A stretch of 64,000 nucleotides of DNA from Candidatus Woodwardiibium gallinarum (GTDB taxonomy: Bacteria; Bacillota; Clostridia; Oscillospirales; CAG-382), in NCBI GenBank assembly GCA_904419545.1, contig CAJFRY010000002.1, positions 1 to 64,000 of the forward strand, given 5' to 3'. Of this stretch, positions 14,145-27,148 are shown in pieces; position 1 is the first letter of the stretch, and the number at the start of each line of letters is the position of its first letter. Made by a program: the position numbers and the translations under genes. Below the pieces are notes generated by a model. It saw only the letters and a program-made list of their open reading frames with translations, was not told where the DNA came from and did no database searches.

Positions 14145-15395
<1,251 letters not shown>

Positions 15396-15416: not shown

Positions 15417-16793
15417 ATGGATAAGCTGTGGGCAGGCAGGTTCAAATCGGCGCTGAACAGCGCGGCGGACGACTTCAATTCCTCCATCCGCGTCGATTCA
15501 CGGATGTACCGCGAGGACATCGAGGGCTCGCAGGCGCACGTGCGCATGCTCGCATCCTGCGGGATCGTCACCGAGGCCGAGGCCGACGCGATCCTGCGCT
15601 GCCTCGGCGAAATCCGTGCCGAGCTGGATGACGGGAGGCTGGAAATCGACTACGCCTGCGAGGACATCCACTCGTTCGTCGAAAAAACGCTCACCGCACG
15701 CATCGGCGACACCGGCAAGAAGCTGCACACCGCACGCAGCCGCAATGACCAGGTCGCCGTGGACACGCGGCTTTACCTCCGCCGGATGGCCGACGAGGAA
15801 AAAGCGGCGCTGCTGACGCTCGTCCGCACGCTTGTGAAGCTGGCCAAGGAAAATACCGAGACGATCCTGCCCGGCTATACACATCTGCAGCGCGCACAGC
15901 CCATCAGCTTTGCGCAGCAGCTTTTGGCGTATGCAAATATGTTCCTGCGCGACCTCGAGCGTCTCGCCGACTGCCGCGTCCGCATCAACCGCTGCCCGCT
16001 GGGCGCGGCGGCACTGGCCGGCACGACCTATCCTATCGACCGCACGCTGACGGCGTCTCTTCTGGGCTTTGACGGGATATGCGAGAACAGCGTCGACGCC
16101 GTGTCCGACCGCGATTATATCGCCGAGCTGGCGTTCGTCAACGCGCTGATTGCGATGCATGTCTCGCGGCTGGCCGAGGAGGTGACGCTCTGGGCGTCCT
16201 ACGAATTCCGCTTCGTCGAGCTGTCGGACGAATTCTCGACCGGCTCGTCGATCATGCCCCAGAAGAAGAACCCCGACATCGCCGAGCTGGCACGCGGCAA
16301 GTGCGGCCGCGTCTACGGCGATCTGCACGCCCTGCTGACTATGCTCAAGGGTCTCCCGCTGGCCTACAACAAGGATTTGCAGGAGGATAAGGAGGCTGTC
16401 TTCGACAGTGTCGATACCGTCCTGGCCACGCTCGGCGTGCTCGCGCCGATGCTGGAAACAATGACCGTCCGGAAGGACGAGATGCGGAAAGCGGCCGACG
16501 GCGGCTACATCAACGCCACCGACTGCGCCGACTATCTGGCAAAAAAGGGACTGCCCTTCCGCGACGCTTATAAAATCACCGGCGCACTGGTCGCGTATGC
16601 CATCGACGAAGGGAAAACGCTTGCCGGGCTGTCTCTGGACGAATACCGGACGTTCTCGCCGCTGTTTGAAGCGGACGTGTACGAAGCGCTGGACATGCAC
16701 ACCTGTATGTCGCTGCGCAGCTCGGAGGGCGGAACGGCGCCCGCGCGCGTGGAAGAACAGATCAGAAAAATCGAGGAACACATCCATGACTAA
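15417..16793 (+). CDS. argH: Argininosuccinate lyase
   Basis: Splits argininosuccinate into arginine and fumarate. 458 residues, fumarase/aspartase fold. The signature loop [12 protein letters not shown] with the catalytic serine is near residue 278; [10 protein letters not shown] and YTHLQRAQP are the other conserved blocks. It follows argG after 21 bases and overlaps argC by eight bases. Confidence 0.97.
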
Positions 16794-17748
16794 AGTGTTT
16801 ATAGACGGCTCCGCCGGCACGACCGGCCTGCGGATCGCAGAGCGGCTTTCCGCACGGCCGGACATCGAGCTGCTTTCCATAAGCGAAGAAGAACGCAAGG
16901 ATCCCGCATCCCGCCGCGCGCACATCAACCAGGCCGACGTCGCCATCCTCTGTCTGCCCGACGATGCCGCGCGCGAGGCCGCCGCAATGGCCGACGGCGG
17001 CGTGCGCATCATCGACGCGTCGACCGCACACCGCACCGCGCCGGGCTGGGTCTACGGCTTCCCCGAGCTGAGCGCCGGGCGGCGCAGGGCGGTCGCGGAA
17101 GCGGCCCGCATCGCCGTCCCGGGCTGCCACGCAAGCGGCTTCTGCGCGCTCGTTTACCCGCTCGTCGCAGGCGGCATCCTGCCCGCCGACTACCCCCTGT
17201 CCGCCCACTCGCTGACCGGCTACAGCGGCGGCGGCAAGAAAAAGATTGCCGACTATCAGGCGCGTACCGACGGCGAGGCGATGGACGCGCCCGCACAGTA
17301 CGCCACCGCGTCGGCCCACAAGCACCTGCCCGAGATGGCGCATATCTGCGGCCTTGCGCAGCAACCGCTCTTCAATCCGATCATCGGGGACTTCTACGCC
17401 GGGATGCTCGTCTGCGTCCCGCTTTACGCCAAGCTGCTGCGAAAGCCTGTCACGCCCGCAAGTCTGTACGAATACTACGCTTCCTACTACGCCGGACAGA
17501 AGCTGCTGTCCGTGCGCGAGCCGATCGGCAACGAAACGCTCTACGCCAACGCCTATGCGGGGCGCGACGACATGGAAATCCTCATCAGCGGCAACGACGA
17601 GCGCATCAACCTCTTCGCCCGCTTCTGCAACCTCGGTAAGGGCGCATCCGGCGCCGCAGTGCAGTGTCTGAACCTGATGACCGGCGCCGACGAGACCGAA
17701 GGTCTGTTCTGCGGCCCGACTCCCACGAAAGGAAACGATCAAAAATGA
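16786..17748 (+). CDS. argC: N-acetyl-gamma-glutamyl-phosphate reductase, uncommon (type 2) form
   Basis: NADPH-dependent reduction of N-acetylglutamyl phosphate in the third step of ornithine synthesis. 320 residues from the ATG at 16786, which overlaps the argH stop. The N-terminus [14 protein letters not shown] is typical of the shorter type-2 ArgC, not the GASGYTG form of the common type. The catalytic cysteine is in VPGCHASGF near residue 113, and TGYSGGGKK follows. Type 2 is mostly known from Proteobacteria, so the placement is mildly unusual. argJ starts in an ATGA overlap. Confidence 0.93.
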
Positions 17749-18959
17749 AAGCATGCAACGGCGGCGTCTGCGCACCGGCCGGCTTCCGAGCCGCCGGCGT
17801 GCACTGCGGCATCCGCAAAAACAAATCGAAAAAGGACTTAGCGCTCATTTACAGCGACACGCCCTGCGCCGCAGCGGCTGTCTACACGCAGAACCTCGTC
17901 AAGGGCGCGCCGATTACGGTCACGCGCGAAAATATTGCCGACGGACGCGCGCAGGCCGTCCTCTGCAACAGCGGCAACGCCAACACCTGCAACGCCGACG
18001 GCCCCGCCGTGGCACGCCGGATGTGCGAGCTGGCGGCCTCCGCCTGCGGACTGGACCCGCGCGATGTCATCGTCGCCTCCACTGGCGTCATCGGTCAGCG
18101 GCTGGACATCTCTCCCATCGAAGCCTCGATCGGCGCGCTGAAGGACGCCCTCTCGGAAACCGGCAGCCGCGACGCGGCCGAAGCGATTATGACCACCGAC
18201 ACCGCGCGCAAGGAGGTCGCCGTCGCCTTCACCGTCGGCGGCGTGGAATGCAGGCTCGGCGGCATCGCCAAAGGCTCGGGGATGATCCACCCGAACATGG
18301 CCACGATGCTTGTCTTTCTCACCACCGACTGCGCCATCTCGTCCGAGCTGCTGCAAAAAGCGCTCGCAGCCGACGCGGCGGACAGCTTCAATATGATCTC
18401 CATCGACGGCGACACCTCGACCAACGATATGGTTTCCATCCTCGCCAACGGCAAGGCCGGCAATCCGCCGATCACCGCCGAAGGGCCCGATTACGATGCG
18501 TTTGCCGCCGCGCTCGCGTTCGTCACGCGCACACTCTGCCGTTCCATTGCCAAGGACGGCGAGGGCGCGACCAAGCTGCTCGAATGCCGCGTCAGCGGCG
18601 CGCGCAGCCTGACCGACGCGCGAACCGTCGCCAAGAGCATAATCTGCTCGTCGCTGGTCAAGGCGGCGATGTTCGGCGCCGACGCCAACTGGGGCCGCGT
18701 GCTCTGCGCCATCGGCTACTCGGGCGCCGACACCGACCCGCACGGCGTGGATGTGTCCTTTTCCTCCGAAGCGGGCACGGTTCACGTATGCGAAAAGGGC
18801 GCAGGTGTGGAATTCTCGGAAGAAACGGCGAAGGCCGTCCTCTCCGCCGACGAGATCCGCATCGACGTGACCCTGCACGACGGTAGTGCGGAGGCGACCG
18901 CGTGGGGCTGCGACCTGACCTACGATTACGTGCGCATCAACGGCGATTACAGGACCTGA
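17745..18959 (+). CDS. argJ: Bifunctional ornithine acetyltransferase / N-acetylglutamate synthase
   Basis: Recycles the acetyl group from acetylornithine to glutamate. About 404 residues from the ATG at 17745. The self-cleavage site that splits the precursor into alpha and beta chains is visible in HPNMATML, where the threonine becomes the beta-chain nucleophile. The N-terminal half has the [10 protein letters not shown] motif, and [18 protein letters not shown] is near the C-terminal third. No separate argA is present in the operon, so ArgJ may also supply the first step. Confidence 0.96.
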
Positions 18960-19014: not shown

Positions 19015-19866
19015 ATGACCGAAAACTACCAGCGCGCAGAGGTGCTCGTCTGCGCCCTGCCCTATATCAAGCAGTACAGCGGCAAAATCGTCGTCGTAAA
19101 ATACGGCGGCAACGCGATGATCAACGACGAGCTGAAAAAGGCCGTGATGGGCGACGTCGCGCTGCTCACGCTCATCGGTGTCAAGGTCGTGCTCGTACAC
19201 GGCGGCGGTCCCGAGCTGACCGAGACGATGTCGAAAATGAACCTTCCCACCCGCTTTGTCAACGGTCTGCGCGTCACCGACCGCGAGACGGCGCAGGTGG
19301 CGCTGATGGTGCTGGCCGGCAAAATCAATAAAAACCTCGTCAACCTCCTCCAGGGCGTCGGTGGCCGCGCCATCGGCCTGTCGGGCATCGACGGACATAT
19401 GATTCAGGCGAAGAAACTCGACGAGTCGCTCGGCTTCGTCGGCGAGATTACGTCCATCAACACCGACCCGATCGTCGACATTTTAGACAAGGGCTACATC
19501 CCGGTCGTCTCCACCGTAGGGTGTGACGACGAGGGCAATGTCTACAACATCAACGCCGACACCGCCGCCGCCCGCATCGCGGCCTCGCTCGGCGCCGAAA
19601 GCCTCATCACAATGACCGACATCAGCGGCATCCTGCGCGACTGCGCCGACGAAAGCTCGCTCATCCGCACGGTACGCGTATCGGAGATTCCCGCGCTGTA
19701 CAAGGACGGCGTCATCACCGGCGGGATGATCCCCAAGGTCGAGTGCTGCGCCGAGGCGGTGCGCCGGGGCGTGCCGAAGGTATTCATCATCGATGGCCGC
19801 GTCCCCCACTCGATCATCGTCGAGATGCTGACCGACGAGGGCTTGGGCACAATGTTCATCAAATAA
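19015..19866 (+). CDS. argB: Acetylglutamate kinase
   Basis: Phosphorylates N-acetylglutamate. 283 residues, amino-acid-kinase fold. KYGGNAM near residue 28 is the ATP-phosphate loop, VHGGGPE binds substrate, and GGMIPKVE near the end is the second nucleotide motif. The 15-20-residue N-terminal helix before the kinase core (YQRAEVLVCALPYI) is the type found in arginine-inhibited hexameric enzymes, so feedback inhibition by arginine is likely. Confidence 0.96.
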   Translation: MTENYQRAEVLVCALPYIKQYSGKIVVVKYGGNAMINDELKKAVMGDVALLTLIGVKVVLVHGGGPELTETMSKMNLPTRFVNGLRVTDRETAQVALMVLAGKINKNLVNLLQGVGGRAIGLSGIDGHMIQAKKLDESLGFVGEITSINTDPIVDILDKGYIPVVSTVGCDDEGNVYNINADTAAARIAASLGAESLITMTDISGILRDCADESSLIRTVRVSEIPALYKDGVITGGMIPKVECCAEAVRRGVPKVFIIDGRVPHSIIVEMLTDEGLGTMFIK

Positions 19867-19883: not shown

Positions 19884-21044
19884 TTGAACACATTTGAAAA
19901 GGACAGCACCTATATCGCACACGCCTATGGCCGGCTGCCGGTCGAATTCGCACGCGCTTCGGGCAGCGAGGTGTTCGGCAGCGACGGGAAGCGCTACATC
20001 GACCTCGGCAGCGGCATTGCGGTCAACATCTTCGGCCACTGCGACCCGGTCTGGACGGCTGCGGTCGAAAAGCAGCTCCACACCTTTGCGCACACCTCCA
20101 ATTATTACTATTCCGCGCCGCAGGCCGATCTGGCCGAGCGGCTCTGCACGCGCACGGGTATGGCGCGCGTGTTTTTTTCCAACTCGGGCGCCGAGGCCAA
20201 CGAATGCGCCATCAAGACGGCGCGCAAGTACGCGTTCGACAAATACGGCAAGGGCAGAAGCACCATCGTCACGCTGACCGGCTCTTTCCACGGGCGGACG
20301 ATGGCCACGCTGGCCGCCACCGGGCAGGATGCGTTCCACAACTACTTCTTCCCCTTTCCCGAGGGGTTTGCTTACACGCCGGCAAACGATGCCGAAGCGT
20401 TGAAAGCTGCGCTGGACGGCTCGGTTTGCGCGCTCCTGCTCGAAATGGTGCAGGGCGAGGGCGGAGTGAACGTGCTCGATCGGGATTTCGTACAGACTGC
20501 CGCTGCGCTCTGCGCCGAGCGGGACGTCCTCCTGCTCGTCGACGAGGTGCAGACCGGCAACGGGCGCACCGGCACGCTCTACGCCTACGAGCAGTTCGGC
20601 GTCAAGCCGGACATACTTACAACCGCAAAAGGACTGGGCGGAGGTCTGCCCATCGGCGCGACGCTGCTGGGCGGAAAAACCGCCGGTACCCTTACGCCGT
20701 CCAGTCATGGCTCGACCTTCGGCGGCAACCCGGTCTGCGCGGCGGGCGCGCTGAGCGTGATCGACCGCATCGACGACGCGCTGCTGGCAGGTGTGCGCCG
20801 CAAGGGCGCTTATATCCGGGAAAAGCTGGAAAAGCACCCCGCCGTCGGGTCGGTTTCCGGAATGGGACTGATGCTCGGCATCCAAACGAAAAAGGACGCA
20901 AAGGCCGTCTGCGCACGCGCGCTGGAGAAGGGACTGCTCGTCCTCACCGCAAAGGACAAAGTCCGCCTGCTGCCGGCGCTGAACATTCCCGACCCCCTGC
21001 TGGAAGAGGGACTGGAAATCCTGCAATCGATACTCGACGAATAA
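19884..21044 (+). CDS. argD: Acetylornithine aminotransferase
   Basis: PLP-dependent transamination of acetylglutamate semialdehyde. 386 residues from the TTG at 19884, chosen for the AAAGGAG upstream and because in-frame codons before it lie in argB. Fold-type-I class-III motifs: SNSGAEANE, LLVDEVQTGNGRTG, and the PLP lysine in TTAKGLGGGLP near residue 240. It may also serve as succinyl-DAP aminotransferase, as known for ArgD/DapC enzymes. Confidence 0.95.
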   Translation: MNTFEKDSTYIAHAYGRLPVEFARASGSEVFGSDGKRYIDLGSGIAVNIFGHCDPVWTAAVEKQLHTFAHTSNYYYSAPQADLAERLCTRTGMARVFFSNSGAEANECAIKTARKYAFDKYGKGRSTIVTLTGSFHGRTMATLAATGQDAFHNYFFPFPEGFAYTPANDAEALKAALDGSVCALLLEMVQGEGGVNVLDRDFVQTAAALCAERDVLLLVDEVQTGNGRTGTLYAYEQFGVKPDILTTAKGLGGGLPIGATLLGGKTAGTLTPSSHGSTFGGNPVCAAGALSVIDRIDDALLAGVRRKGAYIREKLEKHPAVGSVSGMGLMLGIQTKKDAKAVCARALEKGLLVLTAKDKVRLLPALNIPDPLLEEGLEILQSILDE

Positions 21045-21070: not shown

Positions 21071-21982
21071 ATGAAGCATCTACTCAGGCTCGGCGACCTG
21101 TCGGGCGAGGAAATCATCGAGCTGCTCAACCTGGCGGACCAGCTCAAATACGAGAGAAGAAACGGCATCCCCCACCCGCATCTGGCGGGCAAGACACTGG
21201 GGATGATCTTCCGCAAGTCGTCCACGCGCACGCGCGTGTCGTTCGAAGTCGGAATGTACGAGCTGGGCGGGATGGCGCTGTTTTTATCCTCCAACGACCT
21301 CCAGATCGGCCGCGGCGAGGACACGGCCGACACCATCCGCGTGCTCTCCCGCTATCTGGACGGGATTATGATCCGCACCTTTGCCCAGAGCGAGGTCGAG
21401 GAAATGGCCGCTACCGGCTCAATCCCGATCATCAACGGTCTGACCGATTACTGCCATCCCTGTCAGGTACTGGCTGACCTGATGACCATCCGCGAGCGCA
21501 AGCGCTCGCTGGCCGGATTGAAGCTCTGCTTCATCGGCGACGGCAACAATATGGCAAATTCCCTCATCGTCGGCGGCATCAAGACCGGTATGGCCGTCTC
21601 GGTCGCCTGCCCGTCCGGCCACAAACCCGACGCAGAAATCGCCGCGTGGGCCGCGTCCAACGGCAGCTACACCTGCACCGAAAACGTGCTCGAGGCCGCT
21701 GCAGGCGCCGACGTGCTTTACACCGACGTCTGGGCGTCGATGGGACAGGAGGACGAGGCCGCCGAGCGCCGCCGTCTGTTCGCCGGCTATCAGATCAACC
21801 GTGATGTGCTCGGCGCCGCCGCGTCCGACGCGATGGTGCTGCACTGCCTGCCCGCGCACAAGGGCGAGGAGATCACGCAGGACGTGTTCGACGCGCACAC
21901 CGACGAAATCTTTGAGGAAGCGGAAAACCGCCTGCATGCGCAGAAGGCCGTTATGGTCCGTCTGATGAAGAACAAAGCGTAA
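21071..21982 (+). CDS. argF: Ornithine carbamoyltransferase
   Basis: Transfers the carbamoyl group to ornithine to give citrulline. 303 residues from the ATG at 21071; the Shine-Dalgarno is weak (AAGGACG, rather far). Carbamoyl-phosphate motif FRKSSTRTRVSFE is near residue 45, DYCHPCQ is the HPxQ block, and HCLPAHKGEEI carries the ornithine-site cysteine. It is followed by carA, so the carbamoyl phosphate source is co-transcribed. Confidence 0.96.
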   Translation: MKHLLRLGDLSGEEIIELLNLADQLKYERRNGIPHPHLAGKTLGMIFRKSSTRTRVSFEVGMYELGGMALFLSSNDLQIGRGEDTADTIRVLSRYLDGIMIRTFAQSEVEEMAATGSIPIINGLTDYCHPCQVLADLMTIRERKRSLAGLKLCFIGDGNNMANSLIVGGIKTGMAVSVACPSGHKPDAEIAAWAASNGSYTCTENVLEAAAGADVLYTDVWASMGQEDEAAERRRLFAGYQINRDVLGAAASDAMVLHCLPAHKGEEITQDVFDAHTDEIFEEAENRLHAQKAVMVRLMKNKA

Positions 21983-22012: not shown

Positions 22013-23086
22013 ATGAAAGACGCATACATCCTGCTTGAGGACGGGCAGATTTTCAAGGGCAAGCGCATCGGCAGCGAGCGCGATACAATCGGCGAGTTGG
22101 TCTTCACCACCTCGATGATCGGCTGCAACAAGACCCTGACCGACCCGACCTACTACGGGCAGCTCGTGCTGTTCACCTTCCCGTCGGTCGGGAACTGCGG
22201 CCTGATTACCGCCGACTTTGAGAGCGAAGGCGTCCACGCCTTCGGCTGCGTCATGCGCGAGCTGTGCGATACGCCCTCCAATTTCCGCATGGAGGGTACG
22301 CTCGGCGCGTATCTGCAAAAGGCGGACATCCCCGGCATCTGCGGGGTCGACACCCGCCGCCTGACGGCCATCCTGCGCGACTGCGGGACGATGAACGCCT
22401 GCATCTGCGCCGACCCGACGGCCATTGATTTGAACACGGTAAAAAGCTACGCCGTCGGCGACGCGGTCGCTGCGGTCAGCATCCGACAGAAAACGACATA
22501 CAAGCCCGACAAAGCCGCGCGCTGCCGCGTGGCGCTGCTGGACTACGGCACGAAGGCCGAGCTGCTCCGCGAGCTGCTCGGCCGCGGCTGCGAAGTTACC
22601 GTCTACCCGCAGGATACGCCTGCCGACGCCGTTCTTGCCGACAATCCCGACGGCGTCCTGCTCGGCGACGGTCCGGGCGACCCGAAGGTGAACGCACAGC
22701 GCGTCGAACAGATCCAAAAGCTCTGCGGGAAAAAGCCGCTCTTTGCCGTCGGCCTCGGGCATGAGCTGCTGGCGCTGGCCGCCGGCGGCGACACGCTCAA
22801 GCTGCCTTACGGGCACCGCGGCGCCAACCTGCCGGTTACCGAGACGTCAAGCGGCCGCACCGTCGTGACGTCCCAGAACCACGGCTATGCCGTCGCTGCC
22901 GACAGCATCCCCGCGCAGGTCGGCCGCATCAGCTTCTTCAACGCCAACGACGGCACGGCCGAGGGCGTGGAATACACCGCGTTCGACGCGTTCTCGGTGC
23001 AGTTCCGCCCCGCCGTCTCGCCCGGGCCGCTGAACACCGCGATGCTGTACGACCGGTTCGTCGACAGGCTCGCGGACGCGCGCTGA
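22013..23086 (+). CDS. carA: Carbamoyl-phosphate synthase small subunit with degenerate glutaminase triad
   Basis: 357 residues, aligning along its length with CarA, which normally hydrolyses glutamine and sends ammonia to CarB. The N-terminal domain (IGCNKTLTDPTYYGQ, CGVDTRRLTAILRD) and the amidotransferase fold (LGDGPGDPK, SQNHGYAV) are recognisable. The triad is gone: the nucleophile region reads FAVGLGHELL where E. coli has FGICLGHQLL (Cys269 to Gly, Gln273 to Glu), and the C-terminal site reads QFRPAVSPGP where E. coli has QGHPEASPGP (His353 to Arg, Glu355 to Ala). The frame is intact, so the protein is probably a structural or regulatory partner and the synthase ammonia-dependent, as in animal CPS1. 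Confidence 0.93.
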   Translation: MKDAYILLEDGQIFKGKRIGSERDTIGELVFTTSMIGCNKTLTDPTYYGQLVLFTFPSVGNCGLITADFESEGVHAFGCVMRELCDTPSNFRMEGTLGAYLQKADIPGICGVDTRRLTAILRDCGTMNACICADPTAIDLNTVKSYAVGDAVAAVSIRQKTTYKPDKAARCRVALLDYGTKAELLRELLGRGCEVTVYPQDTPADAVLADNPDGVLLGDGPGDPKVNAQRVEQIQKLCGKKPLFAVGLGHELLALAAGGDTLKLPYGHRGANLPVTETSSGRTVVTSQNHGYAVAADSIPAQVGRISFFNANDGTAEGVEYTAFDAFSVQFRPAVSPGPLNTAMLYDRFVDRLADAR

Positions 23087-23104: not shown

Positions 23105-26100
23105 ATGCCAAAGGATACATCGATTAAAAAAGTGCTCGTTATCGGCTCCGGCCCGATCGTCATCGGACAGGCGGCCGAATTCGACTATGCCGGCGCGCAG
23201 GCCTGCCGCGTGCTGAAGGCCGAGGGGATCGAGGCGGTGCTGGTGAATTCCAACCCCGCCACGATTATGACGGACAAGTCTATGGCGGACGAAATCTACC
23301 TCGAGCCGCTCAAAAAGGAAACCGTCGAGCGCATCATCCTCAAGGAGAAGCCGGACAGCCTGCTCGCCGGGCTCGGCGGCCAGACCGGATTGACGATTGC
23401 GATGCAGCTTTCCAAGGAGGGCTTCCTTGAAAAGCACGGCGTGCGTCTCATCGGCACCAACGCCGAAGCCATCGACAAGGCGGAGGACCGCCAGCTCTTC
23501 AAGGACACGATGGCCGCCATCGGCCAGCCCTGCATCCCGTCGGACACGGCCAACGATCTCGAGTCCTGTCTGGCCATCGCCGACCGCATCGGCTATCCCG
23601 TGATCGTGCGGCCGGCCTTCACGCTCGGCGGCGCGGGCGGCGGCGCGGCGATGGACCGTGCGCAGCTAAAGACGATTGCCGCCAACGGACTTGCACTCTC
23701 CCCCATCCATCAGGTGCTGATTGAAAAATACATCGCCGGCTGGAAGGAAATCGAATTTGAAGTGATGCGCGACGCGAAGGGCAACGCCATTACCATCTGC
23801 AGCATGGAAAACGTCGATCCCGTCGGCATCCACACCGGCGACAGCATCGTCGTCGCGCCGGCGATGACGCTTTCCAGCGAGGAATACGGCATGCTCCGTC
23901 AGGCGGCGCTGGACATCATTACCGCGCTGCAGATCGAGGGCGGCTGCAACGTCCAGTTCGCGCTCAATCCCGACAGCTACGAATACGCCGTCATCGAGGT
24001 CAACCCCCGCGTATCGCGCTCGTCGGCGCTGGCGAGCAAGGCGACCGGCTATCCCATTGCAAAGGTAACAGCAAAAATCGCGCTCGGCTACACGCTCGAC
24101 GAAATCCGCAACGACGTGACGGGCAAGACCTCCGCCTGCTTCGAGCCGGCCATCGACTATATCGTTGTCAAGCTGCCGAAGTGGCCGTTCGATAAATTTG
24201 TCAAAGCCTCCCGCCTGCTGGGCACGCAGATGAAGGCGACCGGCGAGGCAATGGCCATCGGCCAGAGCGTCGAGGAAGCGCTGATGAAGGCCGTGCGCGG
24301 CGCCGAAATCGGAATGCAGACCCTCTCCTGCCCGCTGCTGGACGGCGTTGACGCGCGCGCGCGGCTCTCCGTGACCGACGATCTGCGGCTGTTCACCGTT
24401 TACAAGGCGCTCAAAGAGGGCGTTTCGCCCGAGGAGATCCATGCCGTTACGAAGATCGACCTCTTCTTTATCCATAAGCTCAAGAATCTTGCCGATTACG
24501 AGGCGCTGCTGACCAAGAGCGACCTGACCGACGAGTTGTACCTGCGCGGCAAGAGGCTCGGTTTTACCGACGAGAGCATCGCCGCCATTTCCGGCCAGAA
24601 GATCCGCAACCCCCGCCTGCCGTCTTACAAGATGGTCGATACCTGCGCAGGCGAGTTCGCGGCGGAAACGCCTTATTTCTATTCCTGCTACGACGACTAC
24701 TGCGAAGCGCGCGCACACATCGCTTCATCCAAAAAGCGCAAGAAAAAAATCATCGTCTTGGGTTCCGGCCCCATCCGCATCGGACAGGGCATCGAGTTCG
24801 ACTATTCCTCGGTCCACTGCGCGCAGACGCTGCGCAAGCTGGGCTACGAGGTCATCATCATCAACAACAACCCCGAGACGGTTTCCACCGACTTCGACGT
24901 CTCCGACCGGCTCTACTTCGAGCCGCTGACGAAGGAGGACGTCTGGGGCGTGATTCAGACCGAAAAGCCGGTCGGCGTCGTCGTCGCCTTCGGCGGCCAG
25001 ACGGCCATCAAGCTGGCCAAATTCCTCGATTCAAAGGGCATCCGTATCCTCGGCACCTCGGCCGAGGGCATCGACACCGCCGAGGACCGCGAGCGGTTCG
25101 ACAGGCTGCTGAGCAAATTCCGCATCAAGCGCCCAAAGGGACTGGGCGTCAAGACGATGGAGCAGGCGCTCAAGGCGGCCGAGAGCATCGGCTACCCGGT
25201 GCTGCTGCGCCCGTCCTACGTCATCGGCGGGCAGAATATGACCATCGCCTACGCCGAAAGCGACGTGCGCGCATATATGGACATCATCCTCTCGCAGGGC
25301 ATTGAGAACCCCGTCCTCATCGACAAATATATGAGCGGTATTGAGCTGGAGGTCGACGTCATTTCCGACGGCACCGACGTGCTCATCCCCGGCATTATGG
25401 AGCACATCGAACGCGCCGGCGTCCACAGCGGCGACTCGATCGCAATCTATCCGCCGCAGAACATCTCCGATAAAATGATCAAAACGATCGAGGATTCGTC
25501 CTGCAAGCTGGCCAAATCGCTCGGTACGAAGGGTCTGGTCAACATCCAGTACCTCATCTCGGACAACGAGCTGTACGTCATCGAGGTCAACCCGCGCGCC
25601 TCGCGCACGGTGCCGTATATCAGCAAAGTCACCGACCTCCCGCTGGTCGACATCGCCACGCGCGTGATGCTCGGTCAGAAGCTGAAGGAGCTCGGATACG
25701 GCAGCGGGCTGTACAAAATCCCGCCCTATGTGGCAGTCAAGGTGCCGGTATTCTCGTTCGAGAAGCTGTCGGACGTCAACTCCGCGCTCGGCCCGGAGAT
25801 GAAATCGACCGGCGAGGTGCTCGGCATCGGGCGCACGCTGACCGAGGCGCTCTACAAGGGTATGGCCGCGGCGGGCTTTGCCGTCGGCAACGACGAGCGC
25901 GAGGGCCGCAACGGCGTGTTCATCACCGTTTCGGACAATGATAAATACGAAATCGTCACGCTGGCCAAGAAGCTCGACGACCTCGGAATGAAAATTTACG
26001 CGACCAAAGGCACTGCGGCGGCCATCGCGGCGCTGGGCATCGACGTGACCGTCGTCAACAAGCTCGGCGACGACGACAGCGAGCTGCGGCTGCTGGCCGA

Positions 26101-27148
26101 AAATAAGCTGGGGCTGATCGTCTACACCGGCGCGTCGTCGCGCAGCGCATACGACGACTACATCACGCTCCACCGGCAGGCGCTGCTGTCGTCGGTTGCC
26201 TGCGTGACCTCTTTAGACACGGCCAACGCACTTGCGGACATCGCCGCGTCCCGCTACAATCTGTTCAACACCGAGCTGATTGACATCAACGACATGCGAG
26301 TCGAGCGGCAGAAGATCAATTTTTCCAAAATGCAGACCAGCGGCAACGATTATATTTATTTCGATAACCGCGACGGCAGCATCACCAGCCCCGAGTCGCT
26401 GGCCATTCAGGTCTGTGACCGGCACCGCGGCATCGGCGGCGACGGCATCGTGCTGATCGAAAAATCCTCCGTTGCCAACGCGAAGATGCGCATCTTCAAC
26501 CGCGATGGCAGTGAAGGGCTGATGTCGGGTAACTGCATCCGCTGCGTGGCGAAATATCTGTTTGACAAAAAAATCGTCAAAAAGGATAAAATGAAGATCG
26601 AAACGGCCAGCGGCGTCAAATCACTCAAGGTCTACACCTACGGCAATGAAGTCCGCAGCGTTTCGGTCGAAATGGGCAAGGCGTCGCTGGTTCCGGCGGA
26701 CGTGCCCGTCACCCTCCCGGGCGAAAAGGTGCTCGATTATCCGGCTGTCATCGGCGGGAAGGAATACCGCATCAACTGCGTGTCGATGGGCAACCCGCAC
26801 TGCGTGGTATTCTGTGACCGCGTGGACGCGGTGGATGTGGAAGCCGTCGGCCCGCAGTTCGAAAACGCGGATATCTTCCCCGAGCGCGTCAACGCCGAGT
26901 TCGTGCGCGTGGTCAACCGCCGCACGCTCAAGATGCGCGTGTGGGAGCGCGGCAACGGCGAAACGCTCGCCTGCGGCACCGGCGCGTGCGCGGCAGTCGT
27001 GGCGGCGGTGGAAAACGGCTACTGCGACGCGGGCGTGGATATCACCGTCAAGGTGCGCGGCGGCGACCTGATCGTCTCGTACACACCCGAAGGCGTTACG
27101 CTCACCGGCGAGACGGCGCTGGCCTTCGAGGGCACGGTCGTCTGCTGA
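23105..27148 (+). CDS. carB: Carbamoyl-phosphate synthase large subunit fused to a DapF-like epimerase domain
   Basis: One uninterrupted frame of 1347 residues. Residues 1 to about 1068 are a full CarB: two ATP-grasp halves (VLVIGSGPIVIGQAAEFDY near 10; IIVLGSGPIRIGQGIEFDY near 550) and an MGS-like allosteric domain from about 935. From about 1070 (KINFSKMQTSGNDY) to the end it is a complete diaminopimelate epimerase of about 278 residues, with no linker. DapF substrate residues are kept in GNDY, FNRDGSE, GNPHC, NAEFV, ERGNGE and ACGTGACA (second catalytic Cys). The first catalytic loop, normally CGNG, reads SGNC, so the first catalytic Cys is Ser. An internal ATG near 26294 has no Shine-Dalgarno. 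The pairing of arginine/pyrimidine and lysine/peptidoglycan functions is unusual. Confidence 0.93.
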   Translation: MPKDTSIKKVLVIGSGPIVIGQAAEFDYAGAQACRVLKAEGIEAVLVNSNPATIMTDKSMADEIYLEPLKKETVERIILKEKPDSLLAGLGGQTGLTIAMQLSKEGFLEKHGVRLIGTNAEAIDKAEDRQLFKDTMAAIGQPCIPSDTANDLESCLAIADRIGYPVIVRPAFTLGGAGGGAAMDRAQLKTIAANGLALSPIHQVLIEKYIAGWKEIEFEVMRDAKGNAITICSMENVDPVGIHTGDSIVVAPAMTLSSEEYGMLRQAALDIITALQIEGGCNVQFALNPDSYEYAVIEVNPRVSRSSALASKATGYPIAKVTAKIALGYTLDEIRNDVTGKTSACFEPAIDYIVVKLPKWPFDKFVKASRLLGTQMKATGEAMAIGQSVEEALMKAVRGAEIGMQTLSCPLLDGVDARARLSVTDDLRLFTVYKALKEGVSPEEIHAVTKIDLFFIHKLKNLADYEALLTKSDLTDELYLRGKRLGFTDESIAAISGQKIRNPRLPSYKMVDTCAGEFAAETPYFYSCYDDYCEARAHIASSKKRKKKIIVLGSGPIRIGQGIEFDYSSVHCAQTLRKLGYEVIIINNNPETVSTDFDVSDRLYFEPLTKEDVWGVIQTEKPVGVVVAFGGQTAIKLAKFLDSKGIRILGTSAEGIDTAEDRERFDRLLSKFRIKRPKGLGVKTMEQALKAAESIGYPVLLRPSYVIGGQNMTIAYAESDVRAYMDIILSQGIENPVLIDKYMSGIELEVDVISDGTDVLIPGIMEHIERAGVHSGDSIAIYPPQNISDKMIKTIEDSSCKLAKSLGTKGLVNIQYLISDNELYVIEVNPRASRTVPYISKVTDLPLVDIATRVMLGQKLKELGYGSGLYKIPPYVAVKVPVFSFEKLSDVNSALGPEMKSTGEVLGIGRTLTEALYKGMAAAGFAVGNDEREGRNGVFITVSDNDKYEIVTLAKKLDDLGMKIYATKGTAAAIAALGIDVTVVNKLGDDDSELRLLAENKLGLIVYTGASSRSAYDDYITLHRQALLSSVACVTSLDTANALADIAASRYNLFNTELIDINDMRVERQKINFSKMQTSGNDYIYFDNRDGSITSPESLAIQVCDRHRGIGGDGIVLIEKSSVANAKMRIFNRDGSEGLMSGNCIRCVAKYLFDKKIVKKDKMKIETASGVKSLKVYTYGNEVRSVSVEMGKASLVPADVPVTLPGEKVLDYPAVIGGKEYRINCVSMGNPHCVVFCDRVDAVDVEAVGPQFENADIFPERVNAEFVRVVNRRTLKMRVWERGNGETLACGTGACAAVVAAVENGYCDAGVDITVKVRGGDLIVSYTPEGVTLTGETALAFEGTVVC

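Follow-up and report, generated by a model that had tools for sequence, protein, structure and literature searches.

Loss of the glutaminase triad from the CarA of an arginine cluster in Candidatus Woodwardiibium gallinarum, and a probable switch of its carbamoyl phosphate synthetase to ammonia

The carA gene in the arginine cluster of Candidatus Woodwardiibium gallinarum encodes a carbamoyl phosphate synthetase (CPS) small subunit whose glutaminase site is dead, Gly, Arg and Ala standing in place of the Cys-His-Glu triad of class I glutamine amidotransferases (GATases). Glutamine is the textbook nitrogen donor of bacterial carbamoyl phosphate synthesis. The loss of the glutaminase together with a putative switch to ammonia is strongly supported by comparison, namely by the repeated loss of the triad, the intact state of CarB, the signs of purifying selection and the existence of relatives that have CarB but lack CarA. 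It is quite likely that the CPS encoded here works with ammonia only, with CarA as a non-catalytic partner, and that it represents one stage in a series running from intact through dead to deleted CarA. The window, i.e., the whole stretch of 64,000 nucleotides analysed, corresponds to positions 1-64,000 of the forward strand of contig CAJFRY010000002.1 (GCA_904419545.1), from a draft genome of 69 contigs that is 98.6% complete; the relatives considered are mostly MAGs.

The gene (22013..23086, forward strand) is an intact ORF of 357 codons, assigned by profile, alignment to E. coli CarA and an AlphaFold model. Its product scores 374.6 bits against TIGR01368, above the curated cut-off of 307.35, both the PF00988 and PF00117 domains are detected, and E. 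coli CarA (1t36_B) is matched with E=1.4e-77; the protein is hence an otherwise intact CarA, as the initial annotation had described it. The alignment to the E. coli sequence is gap-free around all three active-site blocks, which excludes misalignment, as had also been claimed. Gly247 (codon GGC, 22751..22753) occupies the position of the catalytic Cys269, Glu251 (GAG, 22763..22765) that of Gln273, Arg332 (CGC, 23006..23008) that of the catalytic His353, and Ala334 (GCC, 23012..23014) that of Glu355; codons and alignment agree on the four replacements originally reported. Both Cys269 and His353 are indispensable to the E. coli enzyme (PMC6245113). Two further changes, S47 to Thr and SNGPGDP to GDGPGDP, were absent from the initial annotation. 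G359 and P360 are both retained, and tunnel position 293 carries Ala, a residue shared with many intact relatives. The model shows a confident CarA fold (pLDDT 93.5), with E. coli CarA (1cs0_B) as the best PDB match (TM 0.93) and human CPS1 at TM 0.90-0.91; these values describe the fold and do not bear on activity.

The alignment with relatives, proposed as a check beforehand, bore out the reading: in 109 triad-intact CarAs, position 269 is always Cys and 353 always His, both absent in the window, while 355 is Glu or Asp (the His-Pro-Asp of Lactobacillales was first flagged as a loss and then counted as an intact triad). An error of sequencing or assembly at the four codons, which had been raised as a refutation, can be set aside almost entirely: three of the four changes are each reachable by one base, but the reading frame is unbroken, the changes fall at four sites, and the same sites are changed in dozens of other, unrelated assemblies.

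The window carA closes a series of arginine genes, all on the forward strand and named from sequence: argG (14145..15395), argH (15417..16793), argC (16786..17748), argJ (17745..18959), argB (19015..19866), argD (19884..21044, start approximate) and argF, for ornithine carbamoyltransferase (21071..21982), whose orthologue at locus L319 was named by NCBIfam. The resulting order is argGHCJBDF-carA-carB::dapF on one strand, with 30 bp between the end of argF and the start of carA, and with the carA stop at 23086 adjoining the carB ATG at 23105. The argF product is the consumer of the carbamoyl phosphate made by the window CarAB. The carB part of the fusion (23105..26239), recognised by profile, retains every one of the 279 residues that do not vary among CarBs paired with an intact CarA, and it can be aligned with E. 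coli CarB from end to end, so its catalytic sites look complete. It continues in frame into a diaminopimelate epimerase, dapF (26315..27148; TIGR00652, 264.7 bits). The carB::dapF fusion (23105-27148 in the window) recurs in arginine clusters of the order, beside both intact and dead CarA.

A second carAB, also absent from the initial annotation, lies on contig 34 of the same genome, with purF and pyrG as neighbours and a separate dapF downstream; its CarA carries GICLGHQ and YHPES, a normal triad. The claim that one enzyme serves both arginine and pyrimidine synthesis therefore fails here, while it would hold for genomes elsewhere that have no CarA besides a dead one. Judging from gene position, this organism probably has a glutamine-dependent CPS copy for one pathway and a different copy for arginine.

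In the arginine-cluster enzyme, glutamine hydrolysis would be gone, and CarB would take free ammonia as its nitrogen source and combine it with bicarbonate, at the cost of two ATP, to give carbamoyl phosphate. CarA would persist as a folded protein without catalysis of its own, docked on CarB as a structural support and perhaps lining an ammonia path; the use of ammonia in vivo, the docking and the role in ammonia entry are what we infer. The likely setting would be a habitat rich in ammonia, e.g., the gut, in which a glutaminase may be dispensable, with the contig 34 copy retaining it. According to a review, E. coli requires very high ammonia, and thus an ammonia-rich niche or a better Km for ammonia must be assumed.

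The parallel with animal CPS1 drawn in the initial annotation applies to the presumed way of working and not to family membership. In both cases a GATase-like domain is kept, the catalytic Cys is replaced (by Ser294 in human CPS1) and the synthase is intact; animal CPS1 uses ammonia as donor (PMC4655335), as the window enzyme presumably does. On the other hand, CPS1 is a single mitochondrial chain requiring N-acetylglutamate, whereas carA and carB::dapF are separate ORFs; Gln318 blocks the old tunnel in CPS1, while the window CarA has Ala at tunnel position 293; and Cys, His and Glu are all lost in the window. With E. coli CarAB the window enzyme shares the subunits, the fold and the conserved CarB positions, but it lacks C269, H353, E355 and Q273 and has CarB fused to DapF. 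The E. coli CarA mutants C269S and G359F (PDB 1c30, 1m6v) are laboratory versions of positions changed in dead CarAs, although they are engineered single changes, unlike the natural proteins. A CarB without CarA recalls NadE, the single-domain NAD synthetase, an ATP-dependent amidotransferase without a glutaminase that was shown to use free ammonia in vivo, although fold and pathway are different (PMC3376133). Table 1 of the same survey, which covered about 600 genomes in 2012, gives no glutaminase-less CPS (PMC3376133), and in the open-access literature we found no report of a triad-less bacterial CarA or of a CarB without CarA. The best reading of these comparisons would be that an ammonia-dependent CPS, known in animals and hardly described in bacteria, arose many times in the latter. 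Databases label the dead CarAs as glutamine-hydrolysing; should ammonia-only CPS prove common in Clostridia, such annotations would have to be revised, along with metabolic models of nitrogen flow. Moreover, intact, dead and deleted CarAs offer a natural series for asking what keeps a dead glutaminase in place and how the two activities become independent.

Regarding the distribution of the losses, the family of the window genome includes several further CarAs without Cys and His and many others that are intact. A dead-site codon pattern matched 40 of 395 genomes of the order. An earlier pattern, GSNNYNGGNYTNGGNCAYSARNTN, was dropped because it matched mostly ObgE (GVGLGHQFLRH) and not CarA; the stricter one, with a leading Phe/Leu codon, worked, some of its matches being other proteins. 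After alignment, 42 dead CarAs were obtained, with Gly (39), Ser (2) or Arg (1) at position 269, a majority of Gly that is partly made by the search, since the pattern favours these three residues; in sets collected independently of the pattern, the dead CarAs are nearly all Gly at position 269 as well. His353 is kept in two of the 42, and eleven residues replace it elsewhere (Tyr, Arg, Thr, Glu, Asn, Asp, Lys, Val, Ile, Leu and Gln). Dead CarAs occur both in arginine clusters and in pyrimidine clusters with an ATCase-like gene. Named GTDB genomes add loci L066, L070, L092, L093 and L108, from MAGs labelled Oscillospiraceae, Clostridiales or Clostridia; the stated sources of L066 and L093 are goat cecum and cattle rectum.

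The phylum-level sample yielded four more single cases and one further family, with Gly269/Asp353/Glu355 in all eight members read and an ATCase-like gene in the context of four of them; the loci of this separate family are L343-L350 and L355-L358. Two CarAs have lost only Cys269 of the triad, replaced by Gly in L066 (6001-7074) and by Arg in L226 (8805-9908), while His and Glu remain; they are possible early stages of triad loss. Very divergent CarA remnants were also observed in L351 (8404-9432), in an arginine cluster beside a lower-scoring carB::dapF, and in L352 (7463-8497), beside a CarB remnant of 46 bits.

The losses were counted on quick or FastTree builds, which imply at least 11 changes of state of the CarA triad on the CarB tree and at least 13 on the CarA tree, built with the active-site columns left out. 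Under irreversible loss, the full trees give 16 (CarB) and 17 (CarA) losses, which become 14 and 14 when branches with support below 80 are collapsed most favourably, and 12 and 6 when those below 95 are collapsed, the CarA value being the strictest. The nearest relatives of the window CarA are intact and belong to another genus (L240, L012 and L015; SH-aLRT 96), and the window CarB groups with L240 (support 100); the triad was thus lost in the window lineage after that split.

Dead CarAs elsewhere are under purifying selection. Their pairs show dN/dS values of 0.05-0.23 in both the N-terminal and the GATase domain, overlapping the 0.02 to 0.30 of intact pairs; these values refer to CarAs outside the window, whose own CarA has no relative close enough for a dN/dS estimate. 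They bear on the unlikely alternative that the window CarA is decaying toward a pseudogene, with the intact carAB of contig 34 covering both pathways. That second copy would allow it, and unique changes are about twice as numerous in the window CarA as in its intact sister; the window CarB, by contrast, has about an equal number, i.e., it is not accelerated, and keeps all its conserved positions. Furthermore, carA is a full-length ORF in an intact arg cluster with a confident predicted fold, and the dead CarAs elsewhere, with dN/dS below 0.25 in every pair, are often the only CarA of their genome.

The positions conserved among intact CarAs are kept by the dead ones at 95% in the N-terminal domain and at 77% in the GATase domain, those lost including 205, 240, 268, 359, 360, 362 and 367. 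Position 269 is changed in all dead CarAs and 359 in 46% of them, G359/P360 being lost in about half. A changed G359/P360 loop could, as a suggestion, open an entry for ammonia; the window CarA keeps both residues. The persistence of selection on the GATase domain, with G241, Q310 and Q351 retained in all dead CarAs, might also be read as the mark of a regulatory or sensing role, e.g., glutamine or another ligand bound without hydrolysis. We regard such a role as improbable, since the pocket residues S47, Q273, N294 and N311 are partly lost, in a manner that differs by lineage, and some relatives have done away with the subunit altogether.

A dead CarA is the only full-length one in 19 genomes of the order, and in nine, the window genome included, it is accompanied by a second, intact copy. 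In genome G154 both CarAs are dead by motif, the second (L254, contig 24) having Ala at 269 and Cys at 353 (FGIALGCQ, QFCPES). In addition, 80 of the 395 genomes gave no CarA match, and 53 of these carry a full-length CarB; a profile search of 47 such CarA-less, CarB-bearing genomes recovered no CarA above the cut-off, with a CarA fragment beside the CarB of one of them (G197). The context was viewed for 17 CarA-less genomes and for the CarA-less second CarBs of three others. At most of these loci, a gene of about 360-460 codons directly precedes carB and a run of genes with the sizes of pyrimidine genes follows; the operon of L302 was named as pyrC, carB, pyrK, pyrF, pyrE and pyrB. In two arginine clusters (G026, locus L319, and G007, locus L317), argF runs straight into carB, and the carA that lies between them in the window is missing. 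In the tree, the CarBs of the CarA-less pyrimidine loci fall into a single clade, surrounded by CarBs that mostly have a dead partner, and the two arginine ones are separate from it; the 18 pyrimidine sequences being a single clade, only three independent deletions are seen. Relatives with a dead or deleted CarA very probably use free ammonia directly.

A glutaminase acting in trans, either the intact CarA of contig 34 or an unrelated amidase, could in principle dock on the window CarB, the former being present in the genome. We consider this very unlikely: many genomes lack any intact CarA, the window CarB has its own CarA encoded next to it and keeps a site associated with having a CarA partner, and in a CarA-less operon pyrC directly precedes carB, with no new gene between them.

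The site in question is Glu517 of CarB, in the motif VDTCAxEF, where the oligomerisation domain ends. It is kept in all aligned CarBs with a CarA partner, whether the latter is intact or dead, and altered in 20 of 20 CarA-less CarBs, which belong to three separate lineages. The E. coli small subunit contacts the oligomerisation domain of CarB (PMC6245113), and E517 itself may touch CarA. For the order and the second family of the phylum, we lean towards a scenario in which CPS repeatedly became ammonia-only in stages: Cys would be lost first and then His, CarA would persist as a scaffold, and it would finally be deleted while the CarB surface changed to match, leaving whole genomes that make arginine or pyrimidines without a CPS glutaminase.

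In the CarA-less CarBs L302-L318, L320 and L321, encoded in operons of pyrimidine type, the two residues EF after VDTC are absent, and changes at R428 and E534 are mostly common to them, the exception being L317, which differs and lies in an arginine cluster. Finally, in L203, L204 and L206 a dead CarA stands beside a degenerate CarB that has lost ATP-grasp residues conserved elsewhere, among them E298 and N300 (window numbering); both frames are open there, and another intact CarA is present in these genomes. These three loci, left out of the later CarB comparisons, indicate that a dead CarA is not always paired with an active synthase.
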